The translations under genes and the position numbers were made by a program. Shown piece by piece: positions 3,993-31,738 of a DNA stretch of 32,979 bases. The notes below the pieces were generated by a model. That model had not been told where the DNA came from, searched no databases, and saw nothing but the letters and a program-made list of their open reading frames with translations. Within the stretch, counting starts at the first letter, position 1, and the number at the start of each line of letters is the position of its first letter. This DNA comes from an uncultured Lachnospiraceae bacterium (GTDB taxonomy: Bacteria; Bacillota; Clostridia; Lachnospirales; Lachnospiraceae), in the NCBI GenBank assembly GCA_902785055.1, contig CACZXG010000050.1, forward strand, positions 1 through 32,979, written 5' to 3'.

Positions 3993-4487
3993 TCAGTTCT
4001 TGTCCGCCAGGGAAAAGTATGATCTCGGAATATGGCAGTATCCTCCGGGATTCTTATCCAAATATTTCTGGTGATACTCCTCAGCTGAGAAGAAATTCCG
4101 GATCGGCTCGATAGCAACTGCAAGGGGCTTCCCCACCTCTGCCTGCTGTCTTTCATATACTTTTCGGATGACCGGAAGCTGAGCCTCGTCCGTGTAATAT
4201 ATACCGGTTCGATACTGGATTCCGATATCATTTCCCTGCCTGTTTACTGACAGCGGATCGATCACCATAAAGTAGTAGTCGAGCAGCGCTTCCAAATCCA
4301 TCTCTTTATCATCGTACTCCACCAGAACTGTCTCTGCATGACCGCTGTTCCGGCAGACTTCCTGGTAGCTAGGTGCCTTGTCAGGCCCATTGGCGTACCC
4401 CACTTCCGTTCTGATAACTCCGTCAAACTGGTCGAAAAACTTCTGAAGTCCCCAGAAGCAGCCGCCTGCAAGATAAATCGTACCCAT
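3993..4487 (-). CDS. msrA: peptide-methionine (S)-S-oxide reductase MsrA
   Basis: The 164-residue protein repairs oxidised methionine (S-sulfoxide) in proteins and as free amino acid, in the cytoplasm. The catalytic motif GGCFWG is at residues 8-13 (nucleophile Cys10), followed by the family's GYANG and the Y-Q-E-V-C-R-N-SGHAE-V segment. The C-terminus carries NPGGYCHI. There is no fused MsrB domain. The ATG at 4487 has AAGGAG 7-8 bases upstream; a longer frame to 4535 lacks support. It is a single gene convergent with the MATE gene; the hairpin repeat array begins about 140 bases upstream of its start. Confidence 0.95.
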   Translation of the reverse strand: MGTIYLAGGCFWGLQKFFDQFDGVIRTEVGYANGPDKAPSYQEVCRNSGHAETVLVEYDDKEMDLEALLDYYFMVIDPLSVNRQGNDIGIQYRTGIYYTDEAQLPVIRKVYERQQAEVGKPLAVAIEPIRNFFSAEEYHQKYLDKNPGGYCHIPRSYFSLADKN

Positions 4488-4624
4488 GTGGTTTCTCCTT
4501 TGTACTAAGGTTGGAATCTGTTTCCAGTGTATCATTTCTCTTTATTTTACCACTTTTCTGAAACACTCTTTATGAAAAGTGGCGGTGATATAACTTCCCT
4601 GCGGTATGCTTATATGGGCCTTTC

Positions 4625-5207
4625 CATCCGATATAGGCAAGTTCCTTTATGGATGGGGCCCTTTATGTAAACATGCCATCGGATTCAGCTGAGGCCGGAA
4701 TCGGATGTAGAGCTTGTGCCAGACCAGCTTCTAACATGCCATCGGATTCAGTAGAAGCCGGAATTGGATGTATAACTTGTGCCAGTCAAGCCATAAACAT
4801 GCCATCGGATTCAGCTGTAGCCGTTATCGGATGTATAGTTTGTGCCAGACAAACCATAAATATGCCATCGGATTCAGCTGTAGCCATAATTGGATGTATA
4901 GCTTGTGCCAGACCAGCTTCTAACATGCAATCGGATTCAGCAGAAGCCGGAATTGGATGTATAACTTGTGCCAGGCAAGCCTTAAACGTGCCATCGGATT
5001 CAATCAAGACCGAAATTGGATGTATGATTTGTGCCAGACAAGCTTTTCGTGTACCATCGGATTCGGCTCAAACTGAAGATGGATGTAGAGCAAGTACCAG
5101 ACAAGCTTTCGCGTGCCATCCGATTTGGCGACAAGCCAAAAAGGATGGAAAAAGTGCCAGAAAAGTATCAGAAAAGTGTCAGAAATGTGCCAGACAAGCG
5201 CACAGGA
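4625..5207. repeat. 63-bp tandem repeat array, two hairpins per unit
   Basis: Seven units start at 4677, 4740, 4803, 4866, 4929, 4992 and 5055, a period of exactly 63 bases, with diverged flanking units at 4625 and 5117. Each unit begins with CATCGGATTC and 11 bases later carries GAATYGGATG or a variant, which pair around one G-G mismatch. Each then has a small hairpin of the type CTTGT-GCCAG-ACAAG. Pairing is kept where bases change: TTTGT/ACAAA in unit 3, CTTGT/GCAAG in unit 5, and CATCC/GGATG with inner TTTGGC/GCCAAA in the last unit. The last part (5154-5197) changes to an 11-bp tandem repeat (GTGCCAGAAAA type, four copies). The block is open in one plus frame for about 200 codons only because 63 is a multiple of 3; unit-to-unit changes are mostly amino-acid changing and no ribosome site precedes it. 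I see no gene in 4488-5345. Confidence 0.85.
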
Positions 5208-5293
5208 AAGCTTTAAGTCCCTCCACAACCGCCCATCACCGCAGGAATAATCGTCATTAAGATGGAGTAGTGACAGCTAACCCGTCCCAATAG

Positions 5294-5335
5294 AAAAAGG
5301 GAGCTGCCCCCGTTGATGAATCAACAAGATGCAGC
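5294..5335 (-). terminator. possible terminator after the CoA-transferase gene
   Basis: On the minus strand, downstream of the stop at 5346, a GCTGC/GCAGC outer stem encloses GTTGA-TTCA-TCAAC. Next comes a short GGGG/TCCC pairing and then five T (5298-5294). The stems compete with each other and none is long, so this is a weak candidate for the end of the three-gene operon. Confidence 0.35.
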
Positions 5336-5345
5336 GCCCAATAAA

Positions 5346-6512
5346 TCACACCATCGTATCTATCTCCTCCTTCGCATAGCCAAGCGAAGTCAGGATCTCT
5401 TCAGTATGGTACCCTTCCGGATATCCCGCGTGAGTGTAGCGGGGCGGGCACTTGGAGAGGTGCACGGGGCACCCCATCTGTTTGATCGTCACGCCGTCTG
5501 AGAGCGGGATCTGTACTTCCGGCCACATGCCGCGATGAAGCAGATGTTCGTCGTCAGACACTTCCTGAAGGTCCATAACAGGCTCCACACAGGCGTCAAG
5601 CGTGCTGAAAACTTCCACCCACTCTTTCTGTGTCTTTGTCCTGAATACCTCCCGGAAAGTCTGCTTGACCATAGCCGCTTCGGTACGCAGTATTTTGCCG
5701 TCTTTCCACTCGGGATGTCCCATTGCCTCGCACAGCGCTGCAAAGAACTTGGGTTCCAGGGAACCGACGCTCATATATCTGCCGTCAGCGGTCTCATAGA
5801 AATCATAGATCCCGCCTCCGTTCAGAAGGCCGCTCTCCCGCGCGGGCATCGGTCCGCCGGCAAAATAGGCTGCGCCGTCCATTGAGTTGAAAGGAATGAC
5901 GCAGTCCTGCATGGAGACGTCAATGAACTGCCCTTCTCCGGTCCGCTCGCGATAAATGATCGCCGCGAGGATCGCGGAAACTGCGTTCATTGAGCCGCCT
6001 GCGACATCAGCGATCTGGAAATTGTAGAGGGAAGGCCCGCTTTCGCGGCGTCCCGCCGCCCATGCAATCCCGGATCGGGAGAGGTAGTTGATATCATGCC
6101 CTGCTTTCATGGCAAATGGCCCGTCCTGACCGTACCCTGTGATAGCACAGTAGATCAGTTTCGGGTTCACTTCCCGGAGGGCCTCATAGCCGACTCCGAG
6201 TTTGTCCATGACTCCCGGGCGGAACTGCTCGACCACAATGTCGTATTCCGCGATCAGCTTTTTGACAGCTTCTACAGCTTTCGGCTTTTTCAGATTCAGG
6301 AACATGGTCTTCTTATTGCGTCCGAGCCACGCCTGAACTCCCGTCACCTGTGTGCCGCTGACCACCGGAGGCCAGTTGACCACAAGGTCATACTTGTCCT
6401 TTCCGCTGATCTTGAGCACCTCGGCGCCCATATCCGCCAATGTCATTGTCGCGTAAGGCCCCGGCAGGAGCGTCGTAAAATCAAGTATCTTATATCCGTC
6501 CAGTGCTCCCAT
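5346..6512 (-). CDS. CaiB/BaiF family CoA-transferase or alpha-methylacyl-CoA racemase-like protein
   Basis: The 388-residue protein is a complete family III CoA-transferase fold member. The N-terminus GYKILDFTTLLPGPYATMTL and the RNKKTMFLNLK segment are typical. His139 (in GHDINYL) and Asp169 (in IADVAGGSM) are 30 residues apart. Asp169 corresponds to the nucleophile of CoA-transferases such as formyl-CoA transferase. The His plus Asp pair with this spacing is, as I recall, what alpha-methylacyl-CoA racemases use, so racemase activity is a serious alternative. The ATG at 6512 has GAGGCGG upstream. It is the last gene of a three-gene operon, 26 bases after the flavoprotein gene. Substrate unknown; together with a hydratase it suggests breakdown of a hydroxy or unsaturated carboxylic acid as its CoA ester. 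Confidence 0.88.
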   Translation of the reverse strand: MGALDGYKILDFTTLLPGPYATMTLADMGAEVLKISGKDKYDLVVNWPPVVSGTQVTGVQAWLGRNKKTMFLNLKKPKAVEAVKKLIAEYDIVVEQFRPGVMDKLGVGYEALREVNPKLIYCAITGYGQDGPFAMKAGHDINYLSRSGIAWAAGRRESGPSLYNFQIADVAGGSMNAVSAILAAIIYRERTGEGQFIDVSMQDCVIPFNSMDGAAYFAGGPMPARESGLLNGGGIYDFYETADGRYMSVGSLEPKFFAALCEAMGHPEWKDGKILRTEAAMVKQTFREVFRTKTQKEWVEVFSTLDACVEPVMDLQEVSDDEHLLHRGMWPEVQIPLSDGVTIKQMGCPVHLSKCPPRYTHAGYPEGYHTEEILTSLGYAKEEIDTMV

Positions 6513-6538
6513 TTCTGCCGCCTCTGAGATTTAAGTGA

Positions 6539-7165
6539 TCACTTTCCGTCAGGAAAACTTGTAAAGGAATCTCTCTCGAATACCGGATATCCATACTTTT
6601 CCTTCGCGTCGGCAAACGCTTTGATCATAAAGCTCATGCTTCTGGCGAGGTTTCGCATGGTCTGAAGGCCTTCGAGATCCTTCTTAACGTCCTCTGCGGT
6701 AAAGCCGTGGACCTGATTCCAGTAAGTCGAGGAAGCCACCGGCATGCCGCTGATCGTGAAGTATTTGTTCAGGGCATCAAAAGATGCCGTATTGCCGCCT
6801 CTTCTGCAGCTCACCACAGCCGCGCCGACCTTCATCTGTTTGGAAAACTCGGTGCTGTAGAACAGTCTGTCCATGAAGGAGAGGATGGTTCCGTTGGGAG
6901 ATCCGTAATAAACGGGGCTTCCCACAACAAGTCCGTCCGCCTGCTCAAACTTCGGCGCGACTTCGTTCACGAGGTCGTCAAAAACGCACTTGCCCTTTAA
7001 GCTGCAGCTTCCGCAGGCGACGCATCCGCGGATTTCTTTGATCCCGACCTGGATCAGCTCGGTCTCCACGCCCTCTTCCTCAAAGACTTTGATCATCTCT
7101 TCCAGCGCGGTCGCCGTGCATCCGTGCACATGGGGACTGCCGTTCAGCAATAATACTTTGCTCAT
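6539..7165 (-). CDS. iron-sulfur flavoprotein (NADPH-dependent FMN reductase fold)
   Basis: The 208-residue protein begins with the flavodoxin-like FMN-binding segment KVLLLNGSPHVHGCTATAL and has GLVVGSPVYYGSPNG for the second phosphate/flavin contact. Cys48, Cys51, Cys54 and Cys60 form a compact CX2CX2CX5C motif, which in the iron-sulfur flavoprotein (ISF) family binds a [4Fe-4S] cluster next to FMN. It is therefore likely an electron carrier rather than a simple quinone reductase. It sits between the hydratase (12-base gap) and the CoA-transferase-like gene (26-base gap), so it probably supplies or removes electrons in the same pathway. The ATG at 7165 begins MSKVLLL. Confidence 0.88.
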   Translation of the reverse strand: MSKVLLLNGSPHVHGCTATALEEMIKVFEEEGVETELIQVGIKEIRGCVACGSCSLKGKCVFDDLVNEVAPKFEQADGLVVGSPVYYGSPNGTILSFMDRLFYSTEFSKQMKVGAAVVSCRRGGNTASFDALNKYFTISGMPVASSTYWNQVHGFTAEDVKKDLEGLQTMRNLARSMSFMIKAFADAKEKYGYPVFERDSFTSFPDGK

Positions 7166-7177
7166 TATCTACCTCTG

Positions 7178-9475
7178 TTATTTCGCTTTGCGATTTCTGT
7201 TGAAATTGATCAGGCATCCCGCCTTCACGATCTCGCGCTCGTTCTGCGTCATATCCTGGATGTAGAGGCTGATCTCCTGCGGCTTGCCGTCCTTGATCAC
7301 ATAAGCCTTGATGTCGGAGAGATCTCCGTCCATGATCTTACGGATTCCGGGAACATAGATATAGTCATCTACTTCGATCATATCCGGCTCGCCCTTTAAG
7401 TGGAACGGGATCATGCCCCAGTTCATGACGTTAGAGCGATATCTCTTGGTCGCGTAGTCCTGTGTGATGTTAGCCAGACCGCCGATGACACGCTGACAGG
7501 AAGCTGCCTGCTCACGGGCGGAGCCGTCGCCGGGCTTGTTGGCATAGATCATGGAGCCGATCTCGATGGACGCGGGATCCACGTTCTCGCTGCCGGGGAT
7601 CTGCGCGATCGCCGCATAGACTGCGTTCAGCACGGGATCCAGCTCAGCTGCGTTCTGGCCTGCGACGCGGGCTCTCTCGGTCTTGTCGACTGCTTTGGAT
7701 CTGCCGACGTACTCGGGATCTCTTCTGGAAAGTGTGAACTCCGCAAGGCCCAGAGGGTTGGAGCGGAAGGAAGAAGTCTCGCCGGAAGGGATCAGCTCGT
7801 CAGTGGTCGTAACTTCGTCAAGGATCTTGGAGCAGACCTTGAGCAGGATGTTCTCGCCCAAAGCTTCCATGCTCGGCCAGGGCTTGATGTTGGGACCGTC
7901 AAACAGTTCCTCAGCCTGGTCAGCCTTGCCGTAGCCGTTGTACACTCTTGCTTTGTAAACGGTATCATCGAAATTGTACTCCGGAACATTGCCCCAGCAG
8001 TCATACTGCTCTGCGGATGTCAAAATACCGCCGTTCGCCGCTGTCGCCGCAATAGAGCGCGCATCCATGAGTGCCACAGCCGCCATCTGGCCGTTGCCGG
8101 GCTTGGAGCCTTCGCGGTTGGGGAAATTTCTGGTCGTGTGGCGGACAGAAAGACCGTTGTGCATAGGCGTATCGCCCGCGCCGAAGCAAGGTCCGCAGAA
8201 AGCAGTCTTGACGATCGCGCCTGCTGCCATGAGATCCGCGACCGCTCCCTTTCTGGCCAGGTCGATGAATACAGGCTGGGAGGAAGGATATACGTCGAGG
8301 GAGAACTCGCCGAAGCCGCAGCTCTTGCCGCGAAGGAGGTTCGCCGCCTCAATGACGCTGCTGTAGCAGCCGCCCGCGCAGCCTGCGATGATACCCTGCT
8401 GGACCTGAAGTTTTCCGTCGGGAGTCATCTTGTCCATAAGGGTATATTTTGCCCTGCCGCCGGCAACCTTCTCTGCGGCCTTCTCTGTCTCGCGAAGAAG
8501 ATCCGGAAGATTTGCGTTCACTTCGTCGATGGTGAAAGCATTGCTGGGGTGGAAAGGCAGCGCGATCATAGGCTTGATCGTGCTCAGGTCGATATATACG
8601 CAGCCGTCGTAATATGTGACGTCAGCGGGATTGAGTTCCTTGTAGTCCTCTCCTCTGCCATGCATGGTGAGGTATGCCTTGGTATCCTCATCGGTTCTCC
8701 AGATAGAGGACAGGCAGGTGGTCTCTGTCGTCATGACGTCGACGCCGTTGCGGTAGTCAGTGCCCATGGAAGCGACGCCGGGTCCGACGAACTCCATGAC
8801 CTTATTCTTGACATACCCCTTCTTAAAGACCGCACTAACGATCGCAAGAGCGATATCGTGAGGTCCCACATAGGGAGCCGGCTTGCCGTCGAGGTATACA
8901 GCGACTACGCCGGGATAAGCGATATCATAGGTGTCTTCGAGGAGCTGCTTGACGAGCTCGCCGCCGCCTTCGCCGATGGCCATGGTGCCCAGCGCGCCGT
9001 AGCGGGTGTGGGAGTCGGATCCCAGGATCATCTTGCCGCATCCGGCCATCATCTCACGCATGTACTGGTGGATAACTGCGATGTGCGGAGGAACGTAGAT
9101 TCCGCCATACTTCTTAGCAGATGTCAGACCAAACATGTGGTCATCCTCGTTGATGGTTCCGCCTACCGCGCACAGAGAGTTGTGGCAGTTGGTCAAAACA
9201 TAGGGCAGCGGGAATTTATCCATTCCCGAAGCTCTCGCTGTCTGCACGATGCCGACAAAAGTAATATCGTGGGAAGCCATGGAATCAAATTTGATCCGAA
9301 GCTTGTCCATATTGTCATTCTGGTTATGCGCTTTCAAAATTGAGTAAGCGATCGTACCTTTTTTGGCCTCTTCGGGACAGGCACCCTGAAGTTCCGGTAC
9401 TCCCGCAGCCTCTGCCTCCGGGACGATCTTGTTCCCGCCGACAAGGTAAACACCGCCGTCGTATAATTTAATCAT
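7178..9475 (-). CDS. aconitase-superfamily hydratase (YbhJ-like)
   Basis: The 765-residue protein has the aconitase family layout, with a large N-terminal cluster-binding part and a C-terminal swivel-like part. Visible motifs are [12 protein letters not shown] (152-163), GCAGGC (365-370) and [10 protein letters not shown] (426-435); Cys427 and Cys430 with an earlier Cys are the expected [4Fe-4S] ligands. Its length and motifs fit the poorly studied hydratase group that includes E. coli YbhJ (about 750 residues) better than true aconitase. It should add or remove water on a di- or tricarboxylic acid. It is the first gene of the operon with the flavoprotein and the CoA-transferase-like enzyme. 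The ATG at 9475 has a strong AAGGAGG 7-8 bases upstream, and a promoter lies at 9514-9542. The exact substrate is not determined. Confidence 0.88.
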
Positions 9476-9513
9476 GCGTAAACCTCCTTTGTGTTCAAAG
9501 TAATATCGTTCCT

Positions 9514-9542
9514 ATTATAGTTTAAAAATCGTGATATGCAAA
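9514..9542 (-). promoter_or_regulatory. promoter of the hydratase operon
   Basis: On the minus strand a perfect TATAAT (-10, 9519-9514) is 17 bases downstream of TTTGCA (-35, 9542-9537). It starts the three-gene operon about 30 bases upstream of the ribosome site. Confidence 0.65.
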
Positions 9543-9560
9543 AATAAATTTTCGTTCTGC

Positions 9561-9572
9561 CCGTTCAAACGG
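9561..9572. promoter_or_regulatory. dyad upstream of the hydratase promoter
   Basis: CCGTT-CA-AACGG has perfect 5-bp arms and lies about 20 bases upstream of the -35 box, a typical site for an activator. No regulator gene adjoins it, so this is a weak call. Confidence 0.3.
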
Positions 9573-9592
9573 CCCTTTTCGAACATTTACGC

Positions 9593-9629
9593 AAAAAAAC
9601 AACACCTTTTCCTCGGAAAAAGTGTTGTT
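9593..9629 (-). terminator. strong intrinsic terminator ending the cobalamin operon
   Basis: On the minus strand AACAACAC pairs with GTGTTGTT, continued by TTTTCC/GGAAAA around a short loop, and is followed by seven T (9599-9593). It lies 30 bases after the cobD stop and separates the B12 operon from the hydratase operon promoter. Confidence 0.88.
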
Positions 9630-9658
9630 CTATTGCATTAATTCCGATATGCAAGTCC

Positions 9659-10783
9659 TCAATCGGGGACTTCCCTGATCTTACTTATCAGCCTCATATT
9701 CTCCGCATGGCTTCTGAGACCGATCCTGTAGTAATGACCGTTCTCCTCAGAGGGATCTCTGACTCCCCTTATTCCATCGCATCTTCGGATCAGGATCCCC
9801 TTTTCTTTCAGGGGCTCATACAGTTCTTTCCTGCTCAGGAACATCACAAACGGCGCTTCCCCGTCAAAAACTTCCATTCCCAGTTCCTGCAGCTGCCCGC
9901 TGATGTACTCCCTCTCCACCCGTACTGCTTGCCTTGCCTCCTCCAGATAGCCTCTGGAGCTCAAAGCCGCGATTCCAGCCATTTGGGCGAGCATCGACAC
10001 GCTCCACTCCGGCTGCTGCATCCGGATTCCTTCGAGCAGCTCCTCATTACCTGTCGTCAGATATCCAAGCCTGATTCCGGGCAGAGCATAAGCCTTTGTA
10101 AAGGCATTCACAATGATCAGATAAGGGTTTTCCGGCAGTTTGCGTTTCATCGTCCTGCTCTGAGCGTCCGTAAGAAGATCAAGGTAGCACTCGTCCATGA
10201 CAAGGTAAATATGATTTGCCTTGCAGTAGTCCGCGATCTTGTTGAGCAAAGCAGGTTCTATACACTTCCCTACAGGATTATTCGGGTTGCAGAGGAAAAG
10301 CATAGTTTCCTCTTTCGTTCCCGCAAGCTTTTTCAGTCCGTCAGCCCCCTCCAGAATATCTTCCGTAAGCGCAAACCCTTTTCCTTTATCCAGTTCATAG
10401 AACAGGATCTCCGTTCCGACAGCTTGCAAGGCTCTTTCGTATCCCTGATAGGAAGGCACCGGAATCATCGCTCTCTTCGGGCGCACTGCCTGCACCACTG
10501 CCATCAGAAGTTCTGACGCGCCATTTCCGCACAGGATCCAATCTTCCGGAAGTTCCAGTTTTTGCGATAATTCCTGCTTCAGTTCTCTGTATGCCGGATC
10601 TGGGTAGCTGCTGAGAATCTCTGTCAAGTCCTCCTCTTTCAGCAGTCTGCACACCTCCTGCGGCGGCCCGATCGGGCTCAGATTCACAGAAAAATCCAGT
10701 TCAATATTCTTATTTCCGTAGATATCTCCGCCGTGTTCCAACTGCGCCCTCCAGTTTAATTCCACGAGTTCATGTGCCACCAT
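9659..10783 (-). CDS. cobD: L-threonine-O-3-phosphate decarboxylase (CobD)
   Basis: The 374-residue PLP enzyme of the class I/II aminotransferase fold makes (R)-1-amino-2-propanol phosphate, the linker between corrin ring and nucleotide loop. The N-terminal HGGDIYG plus DFSVNLSPIGPP is characteristic of CobD and separates it from the related histidinol-phosphate aminotransferases. The PLP lysine is Lys230 in NAFTKAYALPGIRLGY, and LCNPNNPVGK is the usual cofactor-pocket segment. It is the last gene of the B12 operon, 48 bases after cobS. The ATG at 10783 has a GGGGG stretch 10-14 bases upstream. The start region is preceded by a diverged copy of itself 32 bases further up. Confidence 0.93.
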   Translation of the reverse strand: MVAHELVELNWRAQLEHGGDIYGNKNIELDFSVNLSPIGPPQEVCRLLKEEDLTEILSSYPDPAYRELKQELSQKLELPEDWILCGNGASELLMAVVQAVRPKRAMIPVPSYQGYERALQAVGTEILFYELDKGKGFALTEDILEGADGLKKLAGTKEETMLFLCNPNNPVGKCIEPALLNKIADYCKANHIYLVMDECYLDLLTDAQSRTMKRKLPENPYLIIVNAFTKAYALPGIRLGYLTTGNEELLEGIRMQQPEWSVSMLAQMAGIAALSSRGYLEEARQAVRVEREYISGQLQELGMEVFDGEAPFVMFLSRKELYEPLKEKGILIRRCDGIRGVRDPSEENGHYYRIGLRSHAENMRLISKIREVPD

Positions 10784-10831
10784 CGTTCAGCCCCCGCAAA
10801 TTCATGTGCTGCCATCGCACACCGCAGGCGA

Positions 10832-11644
10832 TCATCCCACGCAGATGCACACCACTGCCAGCGTGCATGCCGCAAAGACCTCGCACTTGCATAAGAACCA
10901 TCCCTCCAGGTCTCCGGTGATCCCGCCGAGTTCCTTATAAGCCCTGCGTTTATAGCTCACCCAGGCAAGTACAGATATGATTACCGCTGCACCTCCTGCG
11001 ACCGGTTTGAGCAGGATCATTCCGGCCGCCGCTGCAAATCCGATAGCGCACAGCAGTGCCAGATTAGTCCGCCTCGCCTCTTCTCCGAAGTCGGTAAAGG
11101 CCCACAGGGTCCCCTCGCCGCGCGCATTCTTAAAGAGCACTGCCGCCAGTCCGCTCAAGGCCCTCGCCAGCACATACTCCAATGCAAACACGCCAAAATA
11201 TCGACTGTCTCCGCTCCCGGCAACAACCGCCACTGCACTTACCCAGAACGCAGCCAAAATCATCAGTGAAATAACTGAAAAAGCACCGATATGCGGATCG
11301 GACAGGATCTGCAATTTTTTGCCCTGTTCTGCCCAGGAGTGGAAAGCGTCGCTGGTGTCCATAAAGCCGTCCACATGAATCCCTCCCGTCACCAAAACGG
11401 GCAGAATTGCCGCGATCAGGGTGCTCGCCAATAAGATGACCACTTCCGGCAAGTCAGTCATGCCTTCCGCGGCGATCCAATGCATCCCCCACAGCCACAG
11501 CCATGTCATGACGCCAATCACCACTCCCACTACAGGAAAGAGGCCTATCGAATACCTCATCTCTTTTTTGTCCCAGTTTCCATAAGGGACAGGGATCCGC
11601 GAATACATGGAAACTGCAATACATAAAGATCGTAAAAAAGTCAT
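10832..11644 (-). CDS. cobS: adenosylcobinamide-GDP ribazoletransferase (cobalamin synthase, CobS)
   Basis: The 270-residue membrane protein joins adenosylcobinamide-GDP to alpha-ribazole (or its phosphate). Family motifs are visible: MYSRIPVP near the N-terminus, GGIHVDGFMDTSDAF (acidic metal-binding residues), SDPHIGAFSV and the C-terminal GGITGDLEGWFLCKCE. Several hydrophobic helices place it in the cytoplasmic membrane. Its ATG overlaps the stop of the upstream cobU-cobU-cobC gene as ATGA, so the two are probably translationally coupled and produce consecutive steps. Confidence 0.95.
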   Translation of the reverse strand: MTFLRSLCIAVSMYSRIPVPYGNWDKKEMRYSIGLFPVVGVVIGVMTWLWLWGMHWIAAEGMTDLPEVVILLASTLIAAILPVLVTGGIHVDGFMDTSDAFHSWAEQGKKLQILSDPHIGAFSVISLMILAAFWVSAVAVVAGSGDSRYFGVFALEYVLARALSGLAAVLFKNARGEGTLWAFTDFGEEARRTNLALLCAIGFAAAAGMILLKPVAGGAAVIISVLAWVSYKRRAYKELGGITGDLEGWFLCKCEVFAACTLAVVCICVG

Positions 11645-13317: not shown

Positions 13318-13516
13318 CTGCCGTTTTAGCGCCCTTTGAAGTGCCTTAAGGGCACTTAAGCGGCAATTTTCGTGTTTTTAGCAATTTCTGCCGTTTTAGT
13401 GCCCCTCGACACCCTTTAAGGGCACTCAAGCGGCAGTTTTTTGCATTTTTGGCAATTTCTGCCTTTCTAGTGCCCCTCGACACCCTTTAAGGGCACTTAA
13501 ACGGCAGTTTTTTTTT
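13318..13516. repeat. hairpin repeat family A, three tandem units of about 70 bp
   Basis: Units start at 13318, 13388 and 13459. The clearest folds TGCCGTTTTAGTGCCC against GGGCACTCAAGCGGCA with 15 of 16 positions paired, and the other two keep the same fold. Each is followed on the plus strand by a T-rich stretch. That makes terminator-like signals for plus-strand transcription, but the flanking genes run on the minus strand, where no T tract follows. The block lies in the gap between cbiA and the cobU-cobU-cobC gene. No gene is seen in 13270-13743. Confidence 0.85.
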
Positions 13517-13731
13517 CTGACCAAACCGAGCCCTTAGAGCACCTTCTAAGGGCTCTATTACAGCAATCAATATCTGCGGGTTCTTAATCTGACCAAACTG
13601 AGCCCTTAGAGCACCCTCTAAGGGCTCTATTACAGCAATCAATATCTGCGGGTTCTTAATCTGACCAAACTGAGCCCTTAGAACACTCTCTAAGGGCTCT
13701 ATTACAGCAATCAAAGTCCGAGGATTCTTAT
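13517..13731. repeat. hairpin repeat family B, three tandem 72-bp units
   Basis: Units start at 13517, 13589 and 13661, exactly 72 bases apart, and are nearly identical. Each contains the hairpin GAGCCCTTAGAG / CTCTAAGGGCTC (arms overlapping a short loop) followed by the conserved stretch TATTACAGCAATCAA. A diverged single copy is at 29527-29578. A minus-strand frame of 97 codons passes through the block only because 72 is a multiple of 3; I do not call it a gene. Confidence 0.88.
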
Positions 13732-13743
13732 CTGAGTTCTTAG

Positions 13744-29618: not shown

Positions 29619-31343
29619 TTAATTCACAACCGCCCCTGCATGCTCCACATAGATCTGCTGCACAGCAGGAATGCTGCCCATACCAGCGATCTGTGTGTCA
29701 ACCTTCTCGAAGCCGGCCGCCTTGAACATGCTCAGCCAGGAATCCTCGTCCTCACCGGCCATGTCGTTGTTGGCGTGATCGCCCGCCACGACCATGAGAG
29801 GTCTGAGAACAACCTTAGTGTATCCCGCCGCCTTCACTTTTTCGATGACTGCTTCACAGGCTGTGTCTTCCGGCTCTCCCTCAACGGTTCCGATGAAGGC
29901 GTTTTCATATCCAAGCTGTTCCATCTGTGCCTGCATCTGATCGTATGTTACCTTTGCCGTGTGAGATGTTCCGTGTCCCAGGAAGACAAATGCCGTGCCG
30001 TCTTCCTTAGCTGCGTCGAGACTGTCGTATCCTGCCTCAGCGACCGCTGCCTCTGTGACTGCCTTTGCTACGGCTTCCTTGTCGGCGTTGATCTCTGCAG
30101 CGTCCGCTCCGACCGCTCCCAGAAGGGGCTCCGCTATTTTCACAGACTCAAACATGCTGCTGAAATCTTCCACTGTTTTTGTAAGTTCATCGTATTCCGC
30201 GCCGTGCATCAGGTGTGTGGGCTGGATGACCAGCTGCTTCACGCCGTTTGCAGCGGCACGCTCGAGTGCCTGCTCCACGTTGTCGATCTTTTCGCCGTCT
30301 CTTGCCAGCACGTGATTAAGGATGATCTGAGCGGTAAATGCTCTTCTCACCGACCAGTCGGGATACGCCTCCTGCAGGGCCTTCTCAATCCCGCCGATAT
30401 CCGCCGCGCGGCTGTTATTGAAAGATGTTCCGAAACTCACGACCAGCAGTTCCTTCTCTCCGATGTCGCTGCCATTAAGCGGGTCATCTTCAGATGCATC
30501 CCCCGTATCTGCGCCAAAATAGTCCGGATCCGCAAATTCACCCTCAACAAGCGTCTTCTGCTCGTCTGTAAGGGCGTCCCATGCCGCCTTGGCTTCTTCA
30601 CACATCAGATCGGTCTCTTCGGTCCACTGCTGCACGTAGATCGCGTCGATCTTATCGGCAACTGCTTTTGCCGCCGTGAGGTCCTCTTCGCTTGCAGGCT
30701 TTGCGTCTGCTCCGGAATCAGTTCCGTTCTCTGTCTTCTTACCGTCCTCAGCAGGGTTCCCTGACTCAGCCTCCGGAGAGTCTCCCGGGATTATCTCATC
30801 GAGAGAAACAGGATTCGATACGATAACTTTGTGGTCATACCATTTTCCTTTTGTCCCGACCAGAGCCACGTCAAATTCCTTATCTAAATACGGCACAGGG
30901 ATATCAAAAGTGTTCACTTCCTCTCTTGTGCCGTCGCTGTAGGTCACTTCCTCGGTCAGCGGTTCCAGCAGCTCCGCTCCTTCTTTCTGCGCATCCTCAG
31001 CCGTACCGCAGTAGAGATTCACGATATTCTTGGAAGGCATTACAACATGGATCGTCATCCTGCCGTCGCTCACGACGAGAATACCCTTGCCGTCTTTGGT
31101 CTCGTTTACATGAAACATCGAGCCATCGGTATTGAAATCCGCCTGATACATACCGTCCGCAATGGGTGCGCCGTTCTCGGCCGTTGTTCCTTCCTGGCCG
31201 GTCTTTCCGGCCTCTCCTGCCTCTGTCTGCGCTGTCACGCCGGTATCAGCTGCTGCCGGATCTCCTGAGGAGCCGGATCCGCAGCCGGCCGCAGTCGCTG
31301 TGATCAGCATCAGCGTTATGAGAAGTGCTATTGTCTTTTTCAT
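29619..31343 (-). CDS. cbiK: sirohydrochlorin cobaltochelatase CbiK, lipoprotein form
   Basis: The 574-residue protein is about twice the usual CbiK length. A signal peptide ends in TAAGC (Cys21), predicting lipid attachment outside the membrane. After a Gly/Ala/Glu-rich spacer, residues 62-178 form a beta-rich domain (YQADFNTDG, IVNLYCGTAEDAQKEGAE, FDIPVPYLDKEF, KWYDHKVIVSNP). A helical linker follows (221-268, ending WDALTDEQKTLV). Residues 297-574 are the chelatase: LLVVSFGTSFNNSRAADI, QPTHLMHGAEYDEL (His377, His380) and FLGHGTSHTA (His457, His461), then LRPLMVVAGDHANNDMAG. It inserts cobalt into sirohydrochlorin, the entry step of the anaerobic pathway. It is the first gene after the B12 riboswitch. 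AGGAGG precedes the ATG at 31343. Why it is exported is unclear. Confidence 0.92.
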   Translation of the reverse strand: MKKTIALLITLMLITATAAGCGSGSSGDPAAADTGVTAQTEAGEAGKTGQEGTTAENGAPIADGMYQADFNTDGSMFHVNETKDGKGILVVSDGRMTIHVVMPSKNIVNLYCGTAEDAQKEGAELLEPLTEEVTYSDGTREEVNTFDIPVPYLDKEFDVALVGTKGKWYDHKVIVSNPVSLDEIIPGDSPEAESGNPAEDGKKTENGTDSGADAKPASEEDLTAAKAVADKIDAIYVQQWTEETDLMCEEAKAAWDALTDEQKTLVEGEFADPDYFGADTGDASEDDPLNGSDIGEKELLVVSFGTSFNNSRAADIGGIEKALQEAYPDWSVRRAFTAQIILNHVLARDGEKIDNVEQALERAAANGVKQLVIQPTHLMHGAEYDELTKTVEDFSSMFESVKIAEPLLGAVGADAAEINADKEAVAKAVTEAAVAEAGYDSLDAAKEDGTAFVFLGHGTSHTAKVTYDQMQAQMEQLGYENAFIGTVEGEPEDTACEAVIEKVKAAGYTKVVLRPLMVVAGDHANNDMAGEDEDSWLSMFKAAGFEKVDTQIAGMGSIPAVQQIYVEHAGAVVN

Positions 31344-31442: not shown

Positions 31443-31540
31443 ATACCACAAGCAGACCGGCTCAGATTCCGCCGATCTCACTTTTCGTACAGCCAATGCC
31501 TCGTGGCCCGGAATCCATGTGTTCTCACGGATCCCCCGTA

Positions 31541-31719
31541 CTGCGGCAGGCAGGTCTCCCGGCTGATCGATCAGACGCGCCCTGCCTCCCTTCCCGGTCT
31601 CCCAGTGGTCTTAAGGCGGGCGCTCTCGAATCACGGTGACGAGATCGTGCGGGACTTGCACCCGCTTCCCTTTTCACCGGGCCAGGCGTGGATTAACCCA
31701 CGCCTGCCCGACACCTTCC
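31541..31719 (-). promoter_or_regulatory. cobalamin riboswitch
   Basis: On the minus strand the class I cobalamin aptamer is recognised in order: GGAAGGTG (5' side of P1), a strong hairpin CAGGCGTGG-GTTAAT-CCACGCCTG (31706-31683), GGTGAAAAGGGAAGCGGGTG, CAAGTCCCGCAC, the B12 box region ACCACTGGGAGACCGGGAAG, and the closing GCCGGGAGACCTGCC. It sits between promoter and cbiK, followed by an antiterminator/terminator pair. Adenosylcobalamin binding should cause termination and turn the whole biosynthesis and uptake operon off. Confidence 0.93.
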
Positions 31720-31738
31720 GCATCATTTACTTATACGC

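Follow-up and report, generated by a model that had tools for sequence, protein, structure and literature searches.

A polar, 63-bp tandem array in an uncultured Lachnospiraceae bacterium as a copy of a dispersed composite repeat with putative protein-binding units

Results

The tandem array studied here lies in a stretch of 32,979 nucleotides from an uncultured Lachnospiraceae bacterium; this whole stretch is called the window in the following. We put the chances at roughly even (a probability of about 0.5) that the array belongs to a dispersed family of composite extragenic repeats, the unit of which is a putative protein-binding site on double-stranded DNA. The evidence comes from the distribution of the family, from the number, spacing and order of its units, and from the rates at which the parts of the unit change.

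A dispersed family in a few related genomes

With the array as query, the genome to which the window belongs (G000; 3.13 Mb in 196 contigs, 87% complete) returns matches at E <=2e-12 on 12 other contigs. The exact core, CATCSGAT-N17-20-GGATGKA, occurs 74 times in this genome, as opposed to 0 occurrences of the reversed-pattern control. A model built from 87 units, without any structural term, recovers 104 units, all of them inside 17 intergenic array loci, one of which is situated at a contig end. Solo units were not found among the scored hits (150 first-look candidates per genome), and with 150 candidates scored per genome the model gave nothing at E 0.01 in five array-free relatives. A sequence-only reading of the window had left room for the case that no similar arrays exist at other sites or in other strains; with 17 loci here and carriers among 5 of the 61 sampled genomes of the genus, this case does not apply.

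Searched against 84,980 species, a pattern of two units matches 42 stretches, of which 40 belong to five Lachnospiraceae MAGs: RUG14002, RUG12657, UBA6998, UBA4348 and SRR873608_bin.40 (RUG stands for rumen uncultured genome). The other two stretches, in a Myxococcota MAG (L107) and a Gammaproteobacteria MAG (L114), are known as pattern matches alone. Viral contigs, phages and plasmids contain no match to the array, and a phage or plasmid origin was rejected on this ground. The aconitase gene is 99-100% identical among the five carriers; G024, G078 and G079, whose own copies reach 94-96%, are without an array match. Judged from the aconitase gene alone, the five carriers thus appear to form one clade. 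We found no paper on such arrays in the open-access literature, a weak negative given that scope.

Two further observations concern the aconitase comparison. Within the more distant MAG G024, a contig of 3179 bases (L132, G024:C2) is 99% identical to the window and carries a 100% aconitase copy; this short contig is probably misbinned. In addition, four of the five carriers possess a distant aconitase-family match with one TAG (G000:C12, G003:C81, G033:C68, G070:C24), which may reflect either an in-frame stop that is conserved or a pair of neighboring genes.

Number, spacing and order of the units

Altogether, 54 arrays from 27 locus groups were parsed. Orthologous arrays are counted apart, hence the 54 arrays are not 54 independent cases. 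A mismatch cut removed 15 of 69 clusters: 13 were reverse-strand shadows, and the remaining two are a degenerate array (L077) and a three-unit cluster in L102. Seven units are present in 26 arrays and six to eight units in 48; the lengths range from 5 to 13 units, and some arrays reach contig ends.

Among 298 distances below 200 bp between consecutive cores, 280 fall at 59-65 bp, 9 at 51-54, 3 at 74 and 6 at 126-188, with none at 55-58 or 66-73. Since a turn of B-DNA takes 10.5 bp, spacings of 52, 63 and 74 bp would keep the same face of the helix. The off-phase distances are a single 59 and a single 60; admitting cores with up to 4 mismatches adds one spacing of 41 and one of 57, and a false unit accounts for the 57. 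All off-period steps (51-54 or 74 bp) come from seven loci, including the window. Because equal spacing arises by duplication in any tandem repeat, the helical argument rests on these seven loci, and for one of the seven, the window copy, an assembly artefact is possible.

The arrays also have a direction. Linkers of the TGCC type occur in 4, 7, 12, 27 and 39 of the 54 first, second, third, fourth and fifth units, respectively. Of the 54 last units, 24 have CATCC and 47 have GGATGG; among the 266 inner units, the counts are 11-12 and 71-72, respectively. That last units and first-half linkers are unlike the inner ones is a tendency and no rule.

A conserved core that changes slowly

The conserved core of the family reads CATCSGAT-N18/19-GGATGKA, and GGATG is near-universal in the units. 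According to the column counts, from which the stray single matches L051, L053-L058, L060 and L063 were left out, the left block CATCSGAT resembles the reverse complement of the right block, roughly CATCCANT; this likeness produces a hairpin-like inverted repeat by itself. The unit set A1 comprises 87 non-redundant of 142 units from five genomes, all picked by a pattern that demands the core.

Restricting the analysis to orthologous units with at least 75% identity leaves 293 comparisons across 28 array pairs, both directions being counted. These give substitution rates of 0.022 and 0.014 for the two core blocks, 0.068 for the spacer, 0.082 for the linker and 0.150 for the flanks: the core changes three to six times more slowly than the rest. 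Without a filter and with one pair per locus (16 pairs), the rates are 0.058 for the core, 0.180 for the spacer, 0.173 for the linker and 0.088 for the flank. Here, spacer and linker exceed the flank because several arrays had inner units replaced, and where units are replaced the core is trivially conserved, being common to all units. In nine locus pairs of low divergence, picked after seeing all 16 (7 of the 16 were dropped for high divergence), the core counts 18/900 changes versus 131/2732 for spacer plus linker (P = 1.4e-4), and the arrays show 5 small and 3 whole-unit indels in 3.7 kb versus 26 indels in 2.3 kb of flank.

The copy in the window

The features of the window array and its surroundings are listed in Table 1. 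The tandem-repeat search calls a 63-bp period with 7.0 copies at 4668-5106, which confirms the earlier description of a 63-bp tandem array with degenerate units at both ends. The nine cores start at 4625, 4677, 4740, 4803, 4866, 4929, 4992, 5055 and 5117. As the two-unit pattern is present five times in the window and in none of 100 shuffles, the array is not a product of chance. It also contains a super-repeat of 189 bp, equal to three units, that was absent from the earlier description.

Table 1. Position of the array, its parts and the neighboring genes in the window
Feature	Position	Strand	Remark
Whole array of nine units, oriented like the family core CATCSGAT-N18-GGATGKA	4625..5155	+	Spacings 52, 63 (six times), 62
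First unit (CATCC...GGATGG), shorter by one helical turn at 52 bp	4625..4676	+	63 in the orthologues L082 and L096
Units 2-6	4677..4991	+	Best matches, 0.89-0.98, are units of the G000:C34 array (L126, minus strand)
Units 7 and 8	4992..5116	+	Unit comparison with L082
Last unit, terminal type CATCCGATTTGGCGACAAGCC..AAGGATGGA	5117..5155	+	Last unit of L082 matches at 0.92
Tail of degenerate 11-bp repeats (AAAAGTGCCAG)	5150..5210	+	Tandem-repeat search
Frame of 203 aa, open across the array and regarded as incidental	4649..5260	+	No Pfam family
Peptide methionine sulfoxide reductase (PF01625), flanking gene	3993..4535	-	Array upstream of gene start
CoA-transferase family III (PF02515), flanking gene	5346..6512	-	Pfam

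This copy is atypical for the family, with inner units that match another locus, and an artefact is possible. Units 2-6 reach only 0.75-0.77 with their own orthologous arrays, and they may owe their likeness to the C34 array to an exchange between loci or to a chimera of the metagenome assembly. Unit 8 is identical to unit 6 of the orthologue L082 over 53 compared bases; the best match of unit 7 within L082 is just 0.83. The best foreign match lies in an orthologous array for 3 of the 9 window units versus 56 of 95 own units elsewhere. Genome G070, which corresponds to RUG12657 by its match coordinates, has a run of N exactly at this locus, which calls for caution over the assembly of the window copy. 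In G003, about 780 bp are missing at the window locus, array included; hence the window copy is dispensable.

Elsewhere in the window, a second tandem repeat with units of 71-72 bp occupies positions 13318-13735. It contains the inverted repeats AGTGCCC..GGGCACT and GAGCCCTTAGAG..CTAAGGGCTC and has four further partial matches elsewhere in the same genome. A cobalamin riboswitch (RF00174, 92 bits) is located at 31532-31733 on the minus strand, upstream of the open frame 29619-31343.

Loci and neighboring genes

For 14 of the 16 parsed arrays of G000, an array is present at the same locus in another genome; whole-unit gains and losses as well as the replacement of units do occur. At the C9 locus, the array of G000 sits between a stop codon (identified by eye) and a terminator-like hairpin, and the array-free G024 has a short intergenic stretch in its place. 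At C34 (L126, ~6240-11000), a segment of about 3.3 kb is enclosed by two oppositely oriented arrays. Compared with the array-free G024 and, as far as the contig reaches, with G078, this segment is inverted; the two arrays may have served as recombining inverted repeats.

In the window, a hairpin at ~5299-5340 (by eye) follows the 3' end of the CoA-transferase gene, between this gene and the array. Across the loci, 20 out of 29 flanking frames were scanned. The Pfam matches obtained for 17 of these 20 proteins are ordinary chromosomal gene families, with products including pyruvate kinase, a PEP-utilizing enzyme, a family-28 glycosyltransferase, S-adenosylmethionine synthetase, TrkH and ketopantoate reductase; a mobile-element theme is absent among the 20. 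Well-scored genes on both sides are available for 28 arrays: 10 arrays are placed between convergent genes, 10 among genes running in the direction of the array, 8 among genes running against it and 0 between divergent genes (raw counts). A weakly scored divergent gene pair surrounds the array at the C34 locus in three genomes. Some loci have a terminator-like hairpin between the array and the neighbor gene; at another locus, such a hairpin is located beyond the array.

Discussion

A putative site for a multimeric protein

The sequence-only reading had offered three interpretations of the array: a multi-hairpin RNA, a protein-binding array, and a minisatellite made by replication slippage on a structured element. 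Binding by a putative protein is the best supported of the three, given the conserved core, its slower change and spacing steps of one turn. The element is a polar row, usually of 6-8 units, in a few closely related genomes. CATCSGAT and GGATGKA, 18 (or 19) bases apart, would constitute two inverted half-sites at a distance of ~22 bp, i.e. about two turns of DNA, and the units recur every six turns (63 bp), which would place them on the same face of the helix. A protein would load as a multimer on one face of the double-stranded DNA, along 0.4 kb. Such binding would keep the core, be it for chromosome organization or for the docking of a machinery that spreads the element. A bolder version, namely that a genome-wide set of polar, helically phased arrays of about seven putative binding units would nucleate a multimeric DNA-binding protein, serve chromosome organization and have been acquired by one Lachnospiraceae clade, is speculative, and we hold it to be rather unlikely.

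Alternative explanations

The main rival is a selfish composite repeat of the BOX or MITE sort, copied as blocks by a transposase and without a role for the host; the conservation of the core would then reflect the needs of mobilization or conversion. We regard this as a tentative possibility, held at clearly less than even odds. Arrays seem to spread as blocks, since collinear blocks of three units are shared by 19 of 351 pairs of non-orthologous arrays (identity >=0.75), whereas 20 shuffles of the unit order gave 8.8 on average and 11 at most. The limitation of the family to few related genomes points in the same direction, as do the array-free site in G024 (C9 locus), the array-free interval in G003 (window locus) and the lack of a well-scored divergent gene pair around the 28 arrays. 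A purely selfish element is harder to reconcile with the slower change of the core, relative to the rest, at orthologous loci, and with the absence of solo copies among the scored hits. Furthermore, none of the five Y1 transposase matches in G000 neighbors an array, and the one that shares a contig with an array is 21 kb distant. The Y1 family is present in all 5 carriers, but also in 38 of the 56 array-free genomes. An association with Y1/RAYT was rejected because no Y1 match is adjacent to an array in this genome, which is 87% complete.

According to a further model, the array is transcribed into a structured RNA in which every unit forms two hairpins. The window units do carry the complementary arms that had been named from the sequence, and the folding of the array beats all 100 shuffles on either strand; however, with z -2.81 and -2.75 it is equal on both. 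The pair test comprised these two hairpins plus an inner stem added here, applied to the 87 non-redundant units of five genomes with 500 shuffles. Pairs changed on both sides number 11 versus 11.5 in the shuffles and further pair types 32 versus 37.2, so that the changes said to preserve pairing do not exceed expectation. Two weaker measures of the five lean slightly toward that claim, in the top 4-7% of shuffles: 65.1% of the cells are paired versus 64.0 shuffled (19 of 500 shuffles as high), and 83 cells are changed on both sides versus 70.6 (32 of 500 as high). Slid versions of the structure pair less (33-45%), but related sequences, and a structure drawn from them, raise such pairing measures without a fold. 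In 16-17 of 77 distinct segments, the 5' arm of hairpin 2 has an A in place of a T, which breaks the hairpin.

Two further searches for a fold were negative. RNAalifold keeps only CATC/GATG (4 bp) with a covariation term of 0; this invariance is in part due to the choice of units by that very pattern, and a sequence-constrained RNA is therefore formally possible. In an unbiased helix scan of 115 two-unit stretches, the top helix scores 0.29, within the 0.18-0.57 spanned by 20 null maxima, and the strong linker correlations of the scan reflect two linker types rather than stems. Promoter-like sites are not enriched upstream of the arrays (best score 8.31 versus 8.40 shuffled, 26 loci), and terminator-like hairpins precede the array at some loci but follow it at another. 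At the gathering score, Rfam yields no match at the array, the cobalamin riboswitch being its only match in the window. Despite the favorable folding energy, we thus find neither convincing covariation nor promoter enrichment. We conclude that conservation concerns the letters of the two blocks more than a fold; the hairpin RNA was rejected after the stated-pair test, RNAalifold and the helix scan, and we consider it improbable.

An ordinary minisatellite, grown by slippage and functionless, is quite improbable too. Slippage would explain the 189-bp super-repeat and the alike units of the window copy, and whole-unit indels and unit replacement are indeed seen; it is insufficient alone, since 14 of 16 own arrays have an orthologous array and the copy number is near-constant. 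The many loci common to the genomes and the polar order of the units likewise argue against it.

The 203-aa frame raises the question of a repeat protein with 21-aa units and a CxxC motif, which we judge to be very improbable. In the window, the sense frame is open from the second core on, across most of the array, but a sense frame open across the entire array is found in only 1 of 16 own arrays and 3 of 38 others. L082 and L096 both lack a sense frame spanning the second to the last core, and the sense ORFs of L082 reach 77 aa at most. The coding repeat was rejected on this rarity of open frames. The earlier placement of the array outside any gene is probably right functionally, as there is neither a Pfam match nor an orthologous frame, although the 203-aa frame does cross the array.

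The odds are close to nil for a sponge of the RNA-binding protein CsrA, suggested by the near-universal GGATG, by the GGAUGU of the units, which recalls what we take to be the CsrA SELEX consensus, and by the string RUACARGGAUGU in the CsrA literature: none of the 5 carriers (incomplete MAGs) and 2 of 61 genomes of the genus yielded a match to CsrA (PF02599), and the candidate was rejected. With CsrA not found in the carriers and no Y1 match by the arrays of G000, neither explains the array.

Comparison with known repeats

In its working, the array seems closest to the composite extragenic repeats BOX and BIME; we file it as a member of neither. The BOX element of Streptococcus is a composite boxA-boxB(n)-boxC, dispersed and intergenic, and shares with the arrays distinct end modules, a repeatable middle and large copies with incidental open frames (PMC3049150). 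Many intergenic copies, as in BOX, exist here at the 17 loci of G000, and distinct terminal modules exist as a tendency; of a shared stem-loop RNA fold, the arrays show nothing beyond the invariant 4 bp. BOX typically has few boxB modules, whereas the arrays, which belong to another bacterial order, usually have 6-8 phased units, and the two are likened by architecture, not by sequence.

REP and BIME elements with their RAYT transposases are dispersed extragenic repeats that also form arrays and for which protein binding has been proposed (PMC2817692, PMC3733652). BIMEs alternate in orientation, whereas all units here point one way, and REPs end in GTAG beside a palindrome, which is often broken here. 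GTAG is frequent in the units, but GTAT, GTAA and GGAG occur as well; a RAYT gene flanked by the repeat is not seen among the five Y1_Tnp matches in G000 (87% complete). The MIRU minisatellites of mycobacteria, likened by description, also occupy many intergenic loci and consist of tandem units about as long as those of the arrays here; unlike the arrays, however, they are to our knowledge not known for polar unit types or helical spacing steps. CRISPR arrays are rows of short, identical repeats with unique spacers. The units of the present arrays diverge, the conserved blocks flank the variable part and unique spacers are absent, in line with the earlier view that the array is not CRISPR-like.

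Implications

The family gives a warning for the interpretation of single arrays: inverted half-sites can by themselves give rise to the hairpins seen in an array. Should the core be a binding site, a small uncultured clade would seem to have gained some seventeen multi-site DNA platforms, scattered among ordinary chromosomal genes, and the array-free relatives would be the controls for studying how a repeat turns into a chromosome-organizing or mobilization system.
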